Positions 16,210 to 29,537 of a stretch of DNA of 32,296 bases are shown one piece after another. Numbering within the stretch: position 1 is the stretch's first letter; each line of letters opens with the position of its first letter. Source of the DNA: Armatimonadota bacterium (GTDB lineage Bacteria; Armatimonadota; SYMT01; JACQGL01); assembly GCA_016199525.1 (NCBI GenBank), contig JACQGL010000150.1, positions 1 through 32,296 of the forward strand, given 5' to 3'. Both the position numbers and the translations under genes were made by a program. The notes below the pieces were generated by a model, which worked only from the letters and a program-made list of their open reading frames with translations, searched no databases and was not told the origin of the DNA.

Positions 16210-16229
16210 GCCCCGAAAGCTTTCGGGGC
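16210..16229. repeat. Palindrome family, class A copy (intergenic)
   Basis: GCCCCGAAAGCTTTCGGGGC is a perfect 20-bp palindrome between the nusG terminator and tRNA-Gln. It is the leftmost member of the family that recurs through the chromosomal part of the window, here with an extra outer G-C pair. Confidence 0.8.
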
Positions 16230-19346: not shown

Positions 19347-20264
19347 TCATCCCGAAAGCTTTCGGCCCGTACGGGCCAGCGCCTCTCGCAGCCGCTGCAC
19401 CGCCTCTCGATAATAAGTAGGGGAGATCTCCATCCCCAGGAACGGCACCTCCAATCTGGCCGCCGCGAGGGCGGCACTGCCCAGGCCCAAGAACGGGTCC
19501 AGCGCCAGTCCCGAACGCTTTCGGGACAGGCCGTGGAGACGCATGCACATCTCCGCCAGACGCGGAGGGAAGGTGGCCGGATGCGGCCGATCCCGGTCCC
19601 GCCGTTGGATTGTTGAGTAGGGAATAAACCAGGTGTTACCACGGCAATGAAGGTCCCCCCCTGCAGCACGCCAGCGTGTGACGTTGCTCTTGTCGCGATA
19701 GGGCACGCCGATGGCCAGGCGGTCCAGGGCCACGTCTCCCTGGTGCGTGAGGTGGAACACATATTCCTGGCAGTCGTTCAGGTAGCGCGCGCTGTTGATC
19801 GGCTTGTAATGCCCCACCACCAGGTCGTTTTCCCACCCAGGGTAGTTGCCTATGTCCTCGTCCCGTCCCGAAAGCTTTCGGGATTCGGGAATGGCGATGG
19901 ACTTGATCCAGTGGATGGTGTTCTGCAGCCGGAAGTGACGGCGCATCACCTGCAGCACGTCGAATGGGCCCCAGGGATCGCTGGGCTTGCCCGCGATGTT
20001 GAGGAAAAACGATCCCTGGGGGGAGAGAACGCGCGCCACCGCCGCCGCCCAGCGATCCGTCCACTCCAGGTAGGCATCACGGGGTGCGGCATCGTCGAAC
20101 CCTTTGTAGCCGATGCCCAGGTTATAGGGCGGCGAGGTGATCACCACATCTACGGCGCCGGGTTCCAGCAGGGCGGGGAGCACCTCCAGGCAATCGGCCT
20201 GGATCAGGCGCACCACGGCGCCCGCCTCCCCCACACAGAAGCGCTGTTCTTCCCACGCGTCCAT
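19347..20264 (-). CDS. Beta-class DNA methyltransferase containing three palindrome copies
   Basis: A 305-residue amino-methyltransferase with catalytic motif IV TSPPYN at residues 43-48 and the SAM-binding motif DPFLGLGSAALAA near the C-terminus, the beta-class order. Strong family features include GSFFLNIAGKPSDPWGPFDV, WENDLVVGHYKPINSARYLN and HPATFPPRLAEMCMRLHGL. SPPY favours N4-cytosine or N6-adenine methylation. Three copies of the window's palindrome lie in the gene and encode SRKLSG between SIAIPE and RDEDIGNYPG, SRKRSG between LHGL and LALDPF, and GRKLSG immediately before the stop. From memory of the family these are loop positions where homologues are shorter. Its ATG overlaps the stop of pabB by one base (TGATG), so the two are co-translated. 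No cognate restriction gene is adjacent, so it may be an orphan methylase. Confidence 0.85.
   Translation of the reverse strand: MDAWEEQRFCVGEAGAVVRLIQADCLEVLPALLEPGAVDVVITSPPYNLGIGYKGFDDAAPRDAYLEWTDRWAAAVARVLSPQGSFFLNIAGKPSDPWGPFDVLQVMRRHFRLQNTIHWIKSIAIPESRKLSGRDEDIGNYPGWENDLVVGHYKPINSARYLNDCQEYVFHLTHQGDVALDRLAIGVPYRDKSNVTRWRAAGGDLHCRGNTWFIPYSTIQRRDRDRPHPATFPPRLAEMCMRLHGLSRKRSGLALDPFLGLGSAALAAARLEVPFLGMEISPTYYREAVQRLREALARTGRKLSG
19352..19377. repeat. Palindrome family, class A copy fused to GGCCCGTACGGGCC
   Basis: CCGAAAGCTTTCGG (19352-19365) forms the last codons (RKLSG) of the methyltransferase. It overlaps a second perfect palindrome GGCCCGTACGGGCC (19364-19377). Confidence 0.8.
19508..19527. 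repeat. Palindrome family, class A copy (one core mismatch)
   Basis: GTCCCGAACGCTTTCGGGAC, within the methyltransferase gene, encodes SRKRSG between LHGL and LALDPF. Confidence 0.8.
19861..19890. repeat. Palindrome family, class A copy with outer half-repeats
   Basis: TCCCGAAAGCTTTCGGGA (19866-19883), flanked by an extra TCCCG on the left and TTCGGGA on the right. It encodes SRKLSG in the methyltransferase. Confidence 0.85.
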
Positions 20265-21754
20265 CAGCGATCTGTCATCTTCAGTCCCAGCGCCTCCTGC
20301 ATTCCCCGCGCCTTGTGCAAGGTTTCCTCATACTCGGCGTCGGGATCGGAATCAGCCACAATGCCCCCGCCCGCGCAGAACGACACCTCCTCTCCCGCCA
20401 CCCTCATCGTGCGGATGGCGATGTTCCATTCCGCCGTGCCATCGAAGCCACAGTAGCCAATCGCCCCCGTGTAGACGCCCCGCTCGAACGGCTCCATCTC
20501 GGCGATGATCTCCATAGCCCGCACCTTGGGTGCGCCGGTGATCGAGCCGCCAGGGAAGCACGCCCGCAGGCAATCTATGGGGTGCACCTCCTCTCGCAGC
20601 CGTCCGCACACGGTGGCCACCAGGTGGTGCACGGTAGGATGGCTTTCCAACGCGCACAGGTCCGCCACGCGCACGCTGCCATAGTCGCACACGCGGCCCA
20701 GATCGTTGCGTTCCAGATCCACGATCATCACCAGCTCGGCGCGGTCCTTCGGGCTAGTGAGCAGGGCGCGGGCCAGATCGGCATCCGCCGCCGGATCCGC
20801 CCCACGCGGGCGCGTGCCCTTAATCGGCCGCGTTTCCACCTCTCGGCCCCGGATGCGCAGGAACCGTTCCGGCGAAGAGGAGAGCACCTGATGGTCGCCG
20901 GCGTCCACGTAGGCGGCGAACGGAGCGGAGCTGCGCTCCCGCAGCCGCCGGTAGAGTGCCCACGGATGGCCATCCCGACGTAGTCGGGACTGGAATCGCT
21001 GGCTGAGGTTCACCTGGTAGATATCGCCCGCAGCAATGTAGGCCAGCGCGCGCCGAACCGCCTGCGTGTAGGTGGCCCGCGTGTGAGAGGACGTTAGCCC
21101 CATTGCCGGGGAGCTGCACCACTCCGGAGTCGGGCCCGCGCCCCCTACGGGCCGTAGGGCCGCACGAGGTCCCGAAAGCTTTCGGGATAGCCAGCGCACG
21201 CGTTCCTCCGGCGAGCCGTGCCTATCACCGCCTGGCCCTGGCGCATCATCGCCGCTGGCGACCAGGTAGCCGGTCCCGGAGGCGTGGTCGAAGGCGTACA
21301 CCAGGTCGTAGAAGCCGATCCAGGCGTCCGGGAGCGCCGATGCGGCCGGAACCGGGCGGCGCCGACGCACCCGGGGTTCGACCTCCGTACCCAGTTCGTA
21401 GCCCCAATAACCCGCGGCCCCACCCACGAACGGAACCTCGGGATGAGGAGCAAGCGGATGGGCGCGCAGCAGGTCGCGGACCGTATCGAACAGGCCCCGA
21501 TGCGATCGGGACCAGCGGACGTCCTGAGACGCTCGGGACTGAAGGCAGAGAGCGCCATGGGATGCGGTCAGCACGCACTGCGGATCGATGAGCAGAAACG
21601 ACCACCGCCCCTGCCCACCGACCTCACTGGCGCTGTCGAGGAACACCAGGCCCCGCTCACCCAGCAGACGCGCGGCCAGGTCGACGGGCGCTGCGGCAGC
21701 GGTCCACGGCACCACTAGCGCCGACCGCCGTCCCGACATCGCCGACACAGGCAT
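20264..21754 (-). CDS. pabB: Aminodeoxychorismate synthase component I (PabB)
   Basis: A 496-residue chorismate-utilising enzyme. The start at 21754 has GGGGGGAG just upstream; the frame is open for another 1.6 kb, but that extension has no homology. The chorismate-binding domain is complete: RRALAYIAAGDIYQVNLSQR, FAAYVDAGDHQVLSSSPERF, RPIKGTRPRG, ELVMIVDLERNDLGRVCDYG, FPGGSITGAPKVRAMEIIAE and YTGAIGYCGFDGTAEWNIAI. The PIKGT lysine (Lys312) is the residue that distinguishes PabB from TrpE (PIAGT), so the product is 4-amino-4-deoxychorismate for folate. The N-terminal half carries palindrome-derived segments (SRKLSG after RVRWL; SRLRRDG within SQRFQ...HPW; SRASQD; SRSHRG). No pabA or pabC is adjacent; instead a DNA methyltransferase gene overlaps its stop. 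Confidence 0.9.
   Translation of the reverse strand: MPVSAMSGRRSALVVPWTAAAAPVDLAARLLGERGLVFLDSASEVGGQGRWSFLLIDPQCVLTASHGALCLQSRASQDVRWSRSHRGLFDTVRDLLRAHPLAPHPEVPFVGGAAGYWGYELGTEVEPRVRRRRPVPAASALPDAWIGFYDLVYAFDHASGTGYLVASGDDAPGPGGDRHGSPEERVRWLSRKLSGPRAALRPVGGAGPTPEWCSSPAMGLTSSHTRATYTQAVRRALAYIAAGDIYQVNLSQRFQSRLRRDGHPWALYRRLRERSSAPFAAYVDAGDHQVLSSSPERFLRIRGREVETRPIKGTRPRGADPAADADLARALLTSPKDRAELVMIVDLERNDLGRVCDYGSVRVADLCALESHPTVHHLVATVCGRLREEVHPIDCLRACFPGGSITGAPKVRAMEIIAEMEPFERGVYTGAIGYCGFDGTAEWNIAIRTMRVAGEEVSFCAGGGIVADSDPDAEYEETLHKARGMQEALGLKMTDR
20973..20989. repeat. Palindrome family, class B copy
   Basis: TCCCGACGTAGTCGGGA: 7-bp perfect arms around GTA, inside pabB, encoding SRLRRD. Confidence 0.75.
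21170..21187. repeat. Palindrome family, class A copy
   Basis: TCCCGAAAGCTTTCGGGA inside pabB, encoding SRKLSG after RVRWL. Confidence 0.85.
21496..21539. repeat. Two class B palindrome copies (one degenerate) in pabB
   Basis: CCCGATGCGATCGGG (21496-21510) and the degenerate GTCCTGAGACGCTCGGGAC (21521-21539) sit 10 bp apart in the 5' third of pabB, encoding SRSHRG and SRASQD. Confidence 0.65.
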
Positions 21755-21777: not shown

Positions 21778-21884
21778 TCCCGATTGCACCGGGATTGCCC
21801 CCGTCCCGAATCCCGTCCCGAAAGCTTTCGGGATTCGGGACGGGATCTATGCGGCTTTCCCGCCCAGTCCCGATTACGTCGGGA
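21778..21884. repeat. Dense palindrome cluster upstream of pabB
   Basis: Three members in 107 bp: degenerate TCCCGATTGCACCGGGA (21778-21794); a 45-bp nested inverted repeat (21800-21844) built around TCCCGAAAGCTTTCGGGA (21816-21833); and TCCCGATTACGTCGGGA (21868-21884, one arm mismatch). The 260 bp between pabB and the next gene hold no ORF I can support. The cluster lies in the probable pabB leader. Confidence 0.8.
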
Positions 21885-22014: not shown

Positions 22015-22530
22015 TCAAAGGGGAGAGCAGTCCCGACGGCGTCGGGACCACGCCAGCACGAAGAAAGCCGCGGCGCCCATCAGCATCGCCCAGTCGCCCG
22101 GAGTGGAAAGAGTCATGCCCTGCTGGCGTAGCTTTGGGCCCGCCAGTAACGCCAGCGAGAGGCCGAACAGCAGCGTCACTGCCGCGATGCCCATGCCGAG
22201 GTTGAGCCCCCACCGCCGCCGGAGGCAGACGCCCACCGCCGGTAGCCACCAGAGAAGGGCGTAAATCGCCACCGGTATCGCCAGCAATGGACCGGATTGC
22301 AGCTCCAGAACCTCGCCGGAGTCCAGAGTAAGCGCCTCGGCACGAGGAGGTCCTATACCGAGGGATATGGCCTGCCAGGTGGCCGCTACGGCGATCCCTG
22401 CTGCTATCCCGGCGGCCATCCAGCGCTGCCATTCCCCCCCCTGGGGCCGCTTTTCGCCTGCGAGCTCTTTCCCTGTGGCGAGCGGAGAAGGCTCTGGCCC
22501 GACTGTTCGCGCTTTCCGTTTTCTTGACAC
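22015..22530 (-). CDS. Small multi-pass membrane protein
   Basis: A 171-residue protein from a GTG start at 22530 with AAGGGAAAAGGA upstream. A basic N-terminus (MSRKRKARTV) is followed by four predicted membrane segments: WMAAGIAAGIAVAATWQAIS, LLAIPVAIYALLWWLPAVGV, LGMGIAAVTLLFGLSLALLA and WAMLMGAAAFFVLAW. The last residues (SRRRRDCSPL) come from a class B palindrome, so the repeat forms the C-terminus. I recognise no family. It lies upstream of pabB on the same strand but is separated from it by the palindrome cluster. Divergent to it is the epimerase gene, whose -35 box overlaps its start codon. Confidence 0.55.
   Translation of the reverse strand: MSRKRKARTVGPEPSPLATGKELAGEKRPQGGEWQRWMAAGIAAGIAVAATWQAISLGIGPPRAEALTLDSGEVLELQSGPLLAIPVAIYALLWWLPAVGVCLRRRWGLNLGMGIAAVTLLFGLSLALLAGPKLRQQGMTLSTPGDWAMLMGAAAFFVLAWSRRRRDCSPL
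22030..22048. repeat. Palindrome family, class B copy
   Basis: GTCCCGACGGCGTCGGGAC: 8-bp perfect arms around GGC, forming the C-terminal codons (SRRRRD) of the small membrane protein. Confidence 0.8.
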
Positions 22531-26554: not shown

Positions 26555-26923
26555 ACTGGTCTATACCCCATCGCTTGCTTTCCCGTCCGCGTCTGCGGGT
26601 AAGTCTTCTTCCGCGCTTCTAGCGGCTGTCCTTCGCGCCGGATCTCCACACTCACCTCCAGACAGGTTCGCGCCTCTTGGCAAAGAGATACGCTGACGTG
26701 TTGGCCGAAGGGAGGGAGATTTCCTCGCCCGTGAGGCGGCCCACCAGCACGGCCGCAGCACTCTCGGGGTCCGTAGCCCTGCCGCTCCGCCAGGGGGGAT
26801 GGGAGAGGTCCGATGCGGTATCCTGGCGAACTGAGCGGCGATCCCGACTGCGTCGGGATGCGGATTCTCGCTGAAGCAGCTCACCCGCCGGGTGAGGACC
26901 CATTGCCCCAGCAGGAGGCCCCG
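26555..26923. other. Intergenic region with one palindrome, no gene
   Basis: About 370 bp between divergent genes. Open frames here are arginine-rich and lack RBSs. A class B palindrome lies at 26841-26859, about 65 nt before the next start codon. I found no clear promoter. Confidence 0.5.
26841..26859. repeat. Palindrome family, class B copy
   Basis: ATCCCGACTGCGTCGGGAT: 8-bp perfect arms around TGC, in the leader of the small secreted protein gene. Confidence 0.8.
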
Positions 26924-28130: not shown

Positions 28131-29537
28131 TTACCCGCTGGCCACCTCGCCCGGCTTCACCGTTCGGCGCCACTCCTTCATGCTGCGGACGAAATCCCAC
28201 CCCTCGGCCACCAGCAGGGCCACCAGGGCGCTCTGCAAAGCGAGAACCCAGTAACGGCGGTAGGCGTAAATGTAGGGATACCACCCCACCACCAGGGCCG
28301 TGAGCAGGAACCCCACCGTCAACGCCGCCACTGCCGGCCGCCGCCACGCCCGGATTGCCAGGGCCGCTGCCGTCAGCCAGGTCATCAGATTGAGGAGCGT
28401 ACGGAGCGCAGTGGTATCGAACAGGATCAGCATATGTCCCACTGCGAAGCAGGTTCCGGCCAGGGTCGGCAGTGCACCGGCAGCCGCCGCGGCCCACAGG
28501 CGGATGCGAGTGCGGGCCAGAAGGACAAACGCGACCACCCCCAGGATGGCGCCTGCCAGTTGCGGCCACATCCCCTTGATGATCAGCAGCAGGGCGACCT
28601 GCGGCGCCGCAATGAGTGCGAAGTAGCGGGGCCACCCGGTGAAATGGGCGCCCGTGTTAAGCGATCCCGACAGCGCCAACAGCCGCGCGCCGATCAGCAA
28701 CGCCAGCGCGATCCCGTAGGCTGCGGCAACCGGCCGCCACCGGGCCCGCGCCTCCAGGGCGAGAAGACAGGCCATTGGGGCCACCACGTAGGCGATTTCC
28801 TTGAACAGCACGGCGACCGAGAAGGCGGCCACTGCTGCGTACAGCCAGCGATGCTCGCCGGTGTGGAGGAAGTGCTTCACCAGGATCAGGGACAGGAGGC
28901 TGAACGCCAGGGAGCCGAGGTCCATCTGGGCGGGCCACCAGGTGAGCTCCCAGCTGATCACCGTGTCATTGGCCAGCCAGGGGCTGCCGAATAACACCAC
29001 GGCCCCGCCCCCGAGGCCTAGTCGTGCCCAGAGCGGCCCACCTGCCAGGTGGGCGGTAAGCAGCGCTACCAGCACCACGTTCGTCAGGTGCAGCAACAGG
29101 CTCAGCCAGCAATAGAGGTCGTCCCGCTCGCCCCAGAGTCGGTACTGAAGATAGAAGAGGGTGCTGGTGAGGGGGCGATAGTGGCGGGTGTCGGGGACAC
29201 CCTCTTCTTCGCTGATCCAGGGTCCGATCCACCAGCCAAGGATCTCTCTGAAGCTTGCCTGGCGCGCGTGCCGCTGGGGCACTTCGATATCGCTGCCCTT
29301 CTTCTCGTAGTGCCAGAACGCTCCGGGCCAGCCGCGGGCGGGGTACCGCCCGGCGTGGAAGCTGGCAACCACGAGAGCGAAGAGGACGAGCGCGGCCCAG
29401 CCCAGTGCCGGTCGGGACGCCAGCCCCAACGCCGGCCGCATAAGCGCCGTCAGTCCCGATGCCATCGGGATGCACAGCCTCCGTCTGTCTGGCTTGGGAT
29501 CAGGCGCCTGCTGGTCCTCCGTGCCTGGTGGGGCCAT
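28131..29537 (-). CDS. Polytopic membrane protein, GT-C glycosyltransferase-like
   Basis: A 468-residue integral membrane protein with about ten hydrophobic segments. After the first segment (GWAALVLFALVVASFHAG) comes a periplasmic loop with RHYRPLTSTLFYLQYRLWGE and YCWLSLLLHLTNVVLVALL, a pattern of the PMT/GT-C superfamily found in many putative lipid-linked-sugar glycosyltransferases. Later segments include LWAAAAAGALPTLAGTCFAV and WYPYIYAYRRYWVLALQSAL. ATG 29537 is the longest start; ATG 29465 (Met25, inside a class B palindrome) is a plausible alternative because the first 24 residues are polar and unlike a membrane protein. Its role is probably sugar transfer to an exported substrate, but this is inference from topology and the loop motif. 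Confidence 0.6.
   Translation of the reverse strand: MAPPGTEDQQAPDPKPDRRRLCIPMASGLTALMRPALGLASRPALGWAALVLFALVVASFHAGRYPARGWPGAFWHYEKKGSDIEVPQRHARQASFREILGWWIGPWISEEEGVPDTRHYRPLTSTLFYLQYRLWGERDDLYCWLSLLLHLTNVVLVALLTAHLAGGPLWARLGLGGGAVVLFGSPWLANDTVISWELTWWPAQMDLGSLAFSLLSLILVKHFLHTGEHRWLYAAVAAFSVAVLFKEIAYVVAPMACLLALEARARWRPVAAAYGIALALLIGARLLALSGSLNTGAHFTGWPRYFALIAAPQVALLLIIKGMWPQLAGAILGVVAFVLLARTRIRLWAAAAAGALPTLAGTCFAVGHMLILFDTTALRTLLNLMTWLTAAALAIRAWRRPAVAALTVGFLLTALVVGWYPYIYAYRRYWVLALQSALVALLVAEGWDFVRSMKEWRRTVKPGEVASG
29454..29470. repeat. Palindrome family, class B copy
   Basis: TCCCGATGCCATCGGGA: 7-bp perfect arms around GCC at the 5' end of the membrane protein gene; the ATG of Met25 lies inside it. 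A weaker relative, CCCGCTATCGGG, is at 29564-29575. Confidence 0.75.

Follow-up and report, generated by a model that had tools for sequence, protein, structure and literature searches.

A very short palindromic repeat of one Armatimonadota lineage, found in and between genes and in a preferred but not exclusive reading frame

The genome of an Armatimonadota bacterium (GenBank assembly GCA_016199525.1; 3.74 Mb in 266 contigs, 88% complete) carries a dispersed palindromic element, TCCCGAAAGCTTTCGGGA, in and between its genes. This dispersal, the covariation within the hairpin stem, the variable, in-frame net length at sites in genes, the biased use of reading frames, and the near absence of the element from related genomes suggest that it is probably a lineage-specific, very short repeat, similar to REPs and to the Rickettsia palindromic elements (RPEs), that lands with little precision and is subject to purifying selection. 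The window described here is contig C123 of this assembly (JACQGL010000150.1) at its full length of 32,296 nucleotides, in which the element and its close variants (with at most 3 mismatches) are found six times, versus 0.01 expected in shuffled sequences.

The exact 18-mer is present in 104 copies in this genome, and its reversed control in none. Of the 291 phylum genomes compared, the other 290 contain from 0 to 6 exact copies each, with 6 in one genome and 1 in another. The looser pattern CCCGAN{5,6}TCGGG occurs 478 times here versus 2 to 68 times in each of 20 relatives. The large number of unmutated copies, with nearly none in relatives, suggests a recent spread. Searches of IMG/VR and of the literature gave no match to the exact 18-mer, and a phage origin was rejected on the absence of an exact IMG/VR match. 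Two relatives from the same phylum, G014 and G006, seemingly have repeated palindromes of their own with the same arms, such as CCCGACGAAGTCGGG and CCCGATTTCAATCGGG.

The element is found in two classes that have common arms, (R)TCCCGA...TCGGGA(Y). The core consists of 6 bases in class A, mostly AAGCTT, and of 5 bases in class B, and the conservation stops at about 20 bp. Flanked by G..C, class A is predicted to fold into an 8-bp hairpin with a 4-base AGCT loop; the class B loop has 3 bases. Of the 64 T..A-flanked class B copies, 28 have C-G as the inner pair and 27 have T-A. On one strand, the class B loop is mostly GCA, GTA, or GAA (GNA), with a closing pair that covaries between C-G and T-A. 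Loops of the GNA type make unusually stable DNA hairpins. Because of the inner-pair covariation and the loop preference, we suggest that the single-stranded hairpin is the form that matters. Orientation relative to the gene is mixed: asymmetric G..T copies are sense in 12 cases and antisense in 14, and the GNA-loop strand is the same as that of the gene in 9 cases and opposite in 14.

A quite improbable alternative is that the palindrome is a multicopy binding or methylation site maintained at the DNA level, for chromosome organization or restriction-modification, as with HIP1 of cyanobacteria. It would account for a near-perfect, uniform palindrome, and HIP1, likewise a short iterated palindrome present in high numbers, coding sequence included, provides a precedent in coding DNA (PMC4390886). 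However, HIP1 has 8 nucleotides and is linked to methyltransferase sites, whereas here net material is added at the sites, and the palindrome of class B is imperfect, with an inner pair that covaries like that of a hairpin stem. Clustering of the copies within 300 bp and their near absence from relatives also argue against a DNA-level site.

At a shorter range, the copies have 18 neighbors within 100 bp, versus 2.4 expected, and extra half-arms adjoin them 21 times, versus 6 in a control position. The intergenic context of the copies shows no striking bias. Target-site duplication, a trait of MITEs, is little above background at the T..A copies. The C..G subtype, CCCCGAAAGCTTTCGGGG, has 4-base direct repeats on both sides in 28 of 44 intergenic copies; these are nearly all CAGG/CCTG, and a flanking repeat that is nearly always one sequence may be part of either the target or the element. 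Within-genome nucleotide comparison of the copies yielded one clear empty site, of this subtype: the paralogous site L042:13250-13398 is empty, the sites L146:14653, L090:17833, and L025:6649 are filled, and the gain is 22 bp. The C..G subtype may be related to the T..A copies and specific for its target. Composite repeats, consisting of a short hairpin, a class A palindrome, and a second short hairpin, are found within about 70 bp of contig ends, at the starts of the L048 region 1878-1949, L081, L120, L136, and L146. Since they lie close to several contig ends, assembly breaks may hide further copies.

Genes were called with a home-made hexamer-based caller, which yields sensible genes in the window and assigns 78.4% of the DNA to coding sequence. 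Two minus-strand genes of the window contain several copies each. The N6/N4 DNA methyltransferase (Pfam N6_N4_Mtase; positions 19350 to 20264, 305 aa, stop codon at 19347-19349) has three class A copies, and pabB (aminodeoxychorismate synthase component I; positions 20267 to 21754, with the start taken as 21754) has one class A copy and two of class B. The degenerate class A copy at 19350-19367, with two mismatches and a perfect palindrome at 19352-19365, forms the C terminus of the methyltransferase; in the gene frame it reads GRKLSG and is directly followed by the TGA stop. The copy at 19509-19526, with one mismatch and the core ACGCTT, reads SRKRSG in the loop that precedes the LDPF motif. 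Exact copies at 19866-19883 in the methyltransferase, with extra half-arms adjoining, and at 21170-21187 in pabB, within the linker between the Anth_synt_I_N and Chorismate_bind domains, both read SRKLSG.

As proposed in the earlier note, these four class A copies share one frame. However, its claim that class A palindromes in genes always read SRKLSG is not confirmed. Within the window, the class B copies inside pabB, at 20974-20988 and 21496-21510, read SRLRRD and SRSHRG and had not been counted. A fifth exact copy, at 21816-21833, had also been left out; it would give PESFRD if the open frame were read through. This copy is nested in more TCCCG half-arms 5' of the assumed pabB start and thus is probably in the leader. 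Further class B copies are found upstream of pabB (21869-21883), close to the 3' end of a small minus-strand gene (22032-22046), and close to the starts of two called genes (26843-26857 and 29455-29469), where they would be translated as PDCVGM and IPMASG, respectively. A class A copy of the C..G subtype, a 20-bp palindrome at 16210-16229, lies between CAGG direct repeats in the spacer adjoining tRNA-Gln.

The suggested placement of the inserts in loops or at the terminus is supported for both proteins. In a structural model of the methyltransferase (mean pLDDT, 83), one internal copy falls into a low-confidence stretch at residues ~121 to 160, the other internal copy lies in a helix-strand loop, and the third is the C terminus itself; the PabB copy is in the interdomain linker.

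Genome-wide, all three frames of the palindrome are used. The frame counts come from 1.73 Mb of fetched sequence (46% of the genome), which holds 88 exact copies of the 18-mer. Among the exact copies in called genes, SRKLSG is found 21 times, PKAFG 15 times, and PESFRD 7 times, so that the "always" of the earlier note is a small-sample effect. Inclusion of the core variants gives 57 T..A class A copies in genes, 30 of the SRKLSG type, 18 of the PKAFG type, and 9 of the PESFRD type. Equal use of the three frames, the outcome that the note had set against its own reading, is not seen either: in confident genes outside the window, the counts are 22, 13, and 3 (p = 0.0008 versus equal use). In class B, with arms identical to those of class A, the in-gene peptides are PDxVG (23 copies), xPxxSG (21 copies), and SRxxRD (8 copies). 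In both classes, the rarest frame is the one ending in Arg-Asp (12 of 66 copies in class A and 8 of 52 in class B). The preference for SRKLSG is genuine and PESFRD is avoided, yet this is no rule.

Neither the local sequence nor the target explains this preference. Outside the elements, the TCCCGA half-arm is in the TCC CGA frame in just 49 of 525 in-gene cases; this background is opposite to the observed frame, which excludes codon usage and pre-existing TCCCGA half-sites as its source. A target preference for R|Y dinucleotides also predicts the opposite bias, as random R|Y sites in genes give about 14.7, 20.1, and 17.2 (unscaled, with a sum of 52) for the three frames versus the 30, 18, and 9 seen. 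Of the two causes offered in the earlier note, selection on the inserted peptide is thus retained as a tendency, in line with the 22, 13, and 3 copies in confident genes. The other one, a frame-preferring insertion mechanism, is not supported, given the half-arm background, class B, which favors other frames with the same arms, and the net lengths described below.

Selection could also be positive, with SRKLSG itself useful, for example as a charged surface tag, and the in-gene copies kept for that reason. The 22 SRKLSG copies among 38 in confident genes, in a frame disfavored by codon usage, speak for this view. However, other peptides are encoded by about 40% of the in-gene copies, class B gives PDxVG, xPxxSG, or SRxxRD from the same arms, the host proteins have neither function nor location in common, and about half of the copies are outside genes, which makes a useful SRKLSG improbable. 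The preference is better read as tolerance: the reading frame should be invisible to a process at the DNA level, and class B favors other peptides. On the counts, the bias would then reflect selection against the less acceptable peptides. Tolerance, however, does not foretell that the hydrophilic PESFRD should be the rarest.

The net length of the inserts was measured against relatives, as the PDB homologues are too distant to fix it to the codon. For the methyltransferase, 58 orthologues from many phyla were used, several Armatimonadota metagenome-assembled genomes among them. The site at 19866 is longer by 8 residues (24 bp) than in 45 of the 58 orthologues and the one at 19509 by 2 residues (6 bp) than in 57 of 58, so that the six added codons supposed in the earlier note are found at neither site. 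That note had also named, as an outcome against its own reading, orthologues that share the same residues without the palindrome. This outcome is not seen: RKLSG or RKRSG is found at either site in none of the 58 orthologues, although LSR is already present at the second site in about nine of them. Short query segments of three other proteins, searched against relatives, give class A gains of 3 residues (9 bp; 29 of 36 relatives) in glycerate kinase, 7 residues (21 bp; 16 of 18) in transketolase, and 4 residues (12 bp; 8 of 13) in TrmFO; some of the net lengths are based on search-reported alignment ends and not on full alignments. PabB, with its three elements, is 4 to 29 residues longer than its relatives.

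All five measured in-gene gains (24, 6, 9, 21, and 12 bp) are multiples of three, and none is 18 bp. This contradicts a cassette of 18 bp that is cleanly inserted in a preferred codon phase, a highly improbable reading also in view of the use of all three frames, even though the four window copies share one frame and the SRKLSG frame puts the T..A boundaries between codons. In the one informative pair of protein paralogues, the IS701-like (DDE_5) transposases L099:9862-10749 and L130:171-1034, the element replaces conserved residues (HWLLL or ERI) and may have overwritten target codons, so that some sites may not be insertions in the strict sense. From the variation of the five net lengths and this replacement, we infer an imprecise process, in which a hairpin is added and target sequence is removed or extra sequence is brought along, unless later indels adjusted the sites.

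The share of copies in genes is consistent with random landing followed by frame filtering. Among the T..A copies, 57 of 109 (~52%) are in genes. Random landing with one third of the events keeping the frame predicts 55% in genes (p = 0.63), whereas tolerance of all landings predicts 78% (p = 1.5e-9). The C..G subtype, whose gain of 22 bp at the one measured site would shift the frame, is found in genes in only 7 of 51 cases (p = 2e-6 versus T..A). The host genes include those for SMC, DnaG, FtsK, alanine racemase, transketolase, and cytochrome bd. L107:2019-2951, an open frame of 311 codons with no match in Pfam, contains four class A copies and is possibly a decaying gene.

Palindromes within genes are already established for REPs and Rickettsia RPEs (PMC3733652, PMC2229807, PMC10969869), and the element described here is a new, very short variant. 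RPEs (Ogata et al. 2000; reviewed in PMC2229807 and PMC10969869) are dispersed palindromes of one lineage, many of them in frame in unrelated, partly conserved genes and tolerated rather than clearly useful. Like RPEs, the element forms in-frame palindromic insertions in unrelated protein genes that are missing from the orthologues. However, RPEs are about 105 to 150 bp long, whereas the unit here has about 18 to 20 bp and adds 2 to 8 codons. CGTC-tagged REPs, which include Neisseria dRS3, ATTCCC(N8)GGGAAT (PMC3733652, PMC3898611), resemble it in their size of ~20 bp, conserved arms, variable core, and hundreds of copies, as well as in a hairpin loop of 4 to 5 bases, known intragenic copies, and the lack of a dedicated transposase. 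Class A has such a loop (4 bases) and class B has one of 3. The CGTC tag (or TGTC or CCTC) at one defined end is absent as a rule from the 109 T..A class A copies, in which CGT/ACG is found at exactly one end in 54, at both ends in 7, and at neither in 48; when the 54 copies are oriented and aligned, their untagged end has no CCA tail. Instead of an 8- to 9-bp stem that opens with two A-T pairs, the element has a stem that begins with TCCCGA, T-A first and C-G second.

GTAG-tagged REPs, mobilized by RAYTs (PMC3733652), are also short, clustered hairpin repeats of high copy number, some of them in genes. However, the element has no GTAG tag, and no Y1_Tnp gene is found in its own 88%-complete assembly. 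GTAG occurs near the T..A copies 10 and 5 times versus 7 expected, which is not above background; CTAC is found on the right side of the C..G subtype 13 times versus 3. Lacking the defining GTAG and CGTC tags and being far shorter than RPEs, the element is not filed as a member of any of these families, and membership in the GTAG- and CGTC-tagged REPs was rejected.

A RAYT-type (HUH/Y1) transposase might still move the hairpin in trans, as it does GTAG REPs. The REP-like size, hairpin form, copy number, and clustering agree with this, and Y1_Tnp is found above the cut-off in 13 of 21 genomes (this one and 20 relatives). Against it, a search for Y1_Tnp (PF01797) gives no match in the bacterium's own assembly (G000, 88% complete), no GTAG or CGTC tag marks one end, and the variable net length is not a simple outcome of transposase action; such an enzyme is therefore an unlikely, though not negligible, agent. 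Ku-dependent end joining was rejected, as Ku is found neither in this 88%-complete assembly nor in 20 relatives.

With imprecise landing and purifying selection, the history of a copy would be as follows. A hairpin unit with TCCCGA arms around an AGCT tetraloop in class A and, mostly, around a GNA triloop in class B would land anywhere in the genome, genes included, and change the net length by an amount particular to each site. Frameshifting landings would be lost, and those with a net change that is a multiple of three would survive where the site is a loop, a linker, or a terminus. None of the three frames of the palindrome contains a stop codon, so that a copy can be retained in any of them. 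The inserted residues would then come under purifying selection, which would thin out the less acceptable peptides and leave SRKLSG moderately preferred and PESFRD scarce. As for the landing itself, one tentative possibility is hairpin-templated copying in place of the transposition of a unit: a template switch through a copy already present would overwrite a target stretch of variable length. Such copying would explain why the net length varies, why extra half-arms adjoin copies, why the hairpin has a GNA loop, and why no transposase was detected.

If true, template switching would scatter small peptides through the proteins of a single species without any transposase. In-frame palindromes in genes are best known from Rickettsia, and here a much shorter repeat, apparently unrelated, leads to the same outcome, with about half of the T..A copies in genes, some of them conserved. 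With the measured net lengths, the account by random landing and frame filtering can be tested directly. If the spread is as recent as suggested, the multiplication of REPs without a transposase could be studied in living populations.
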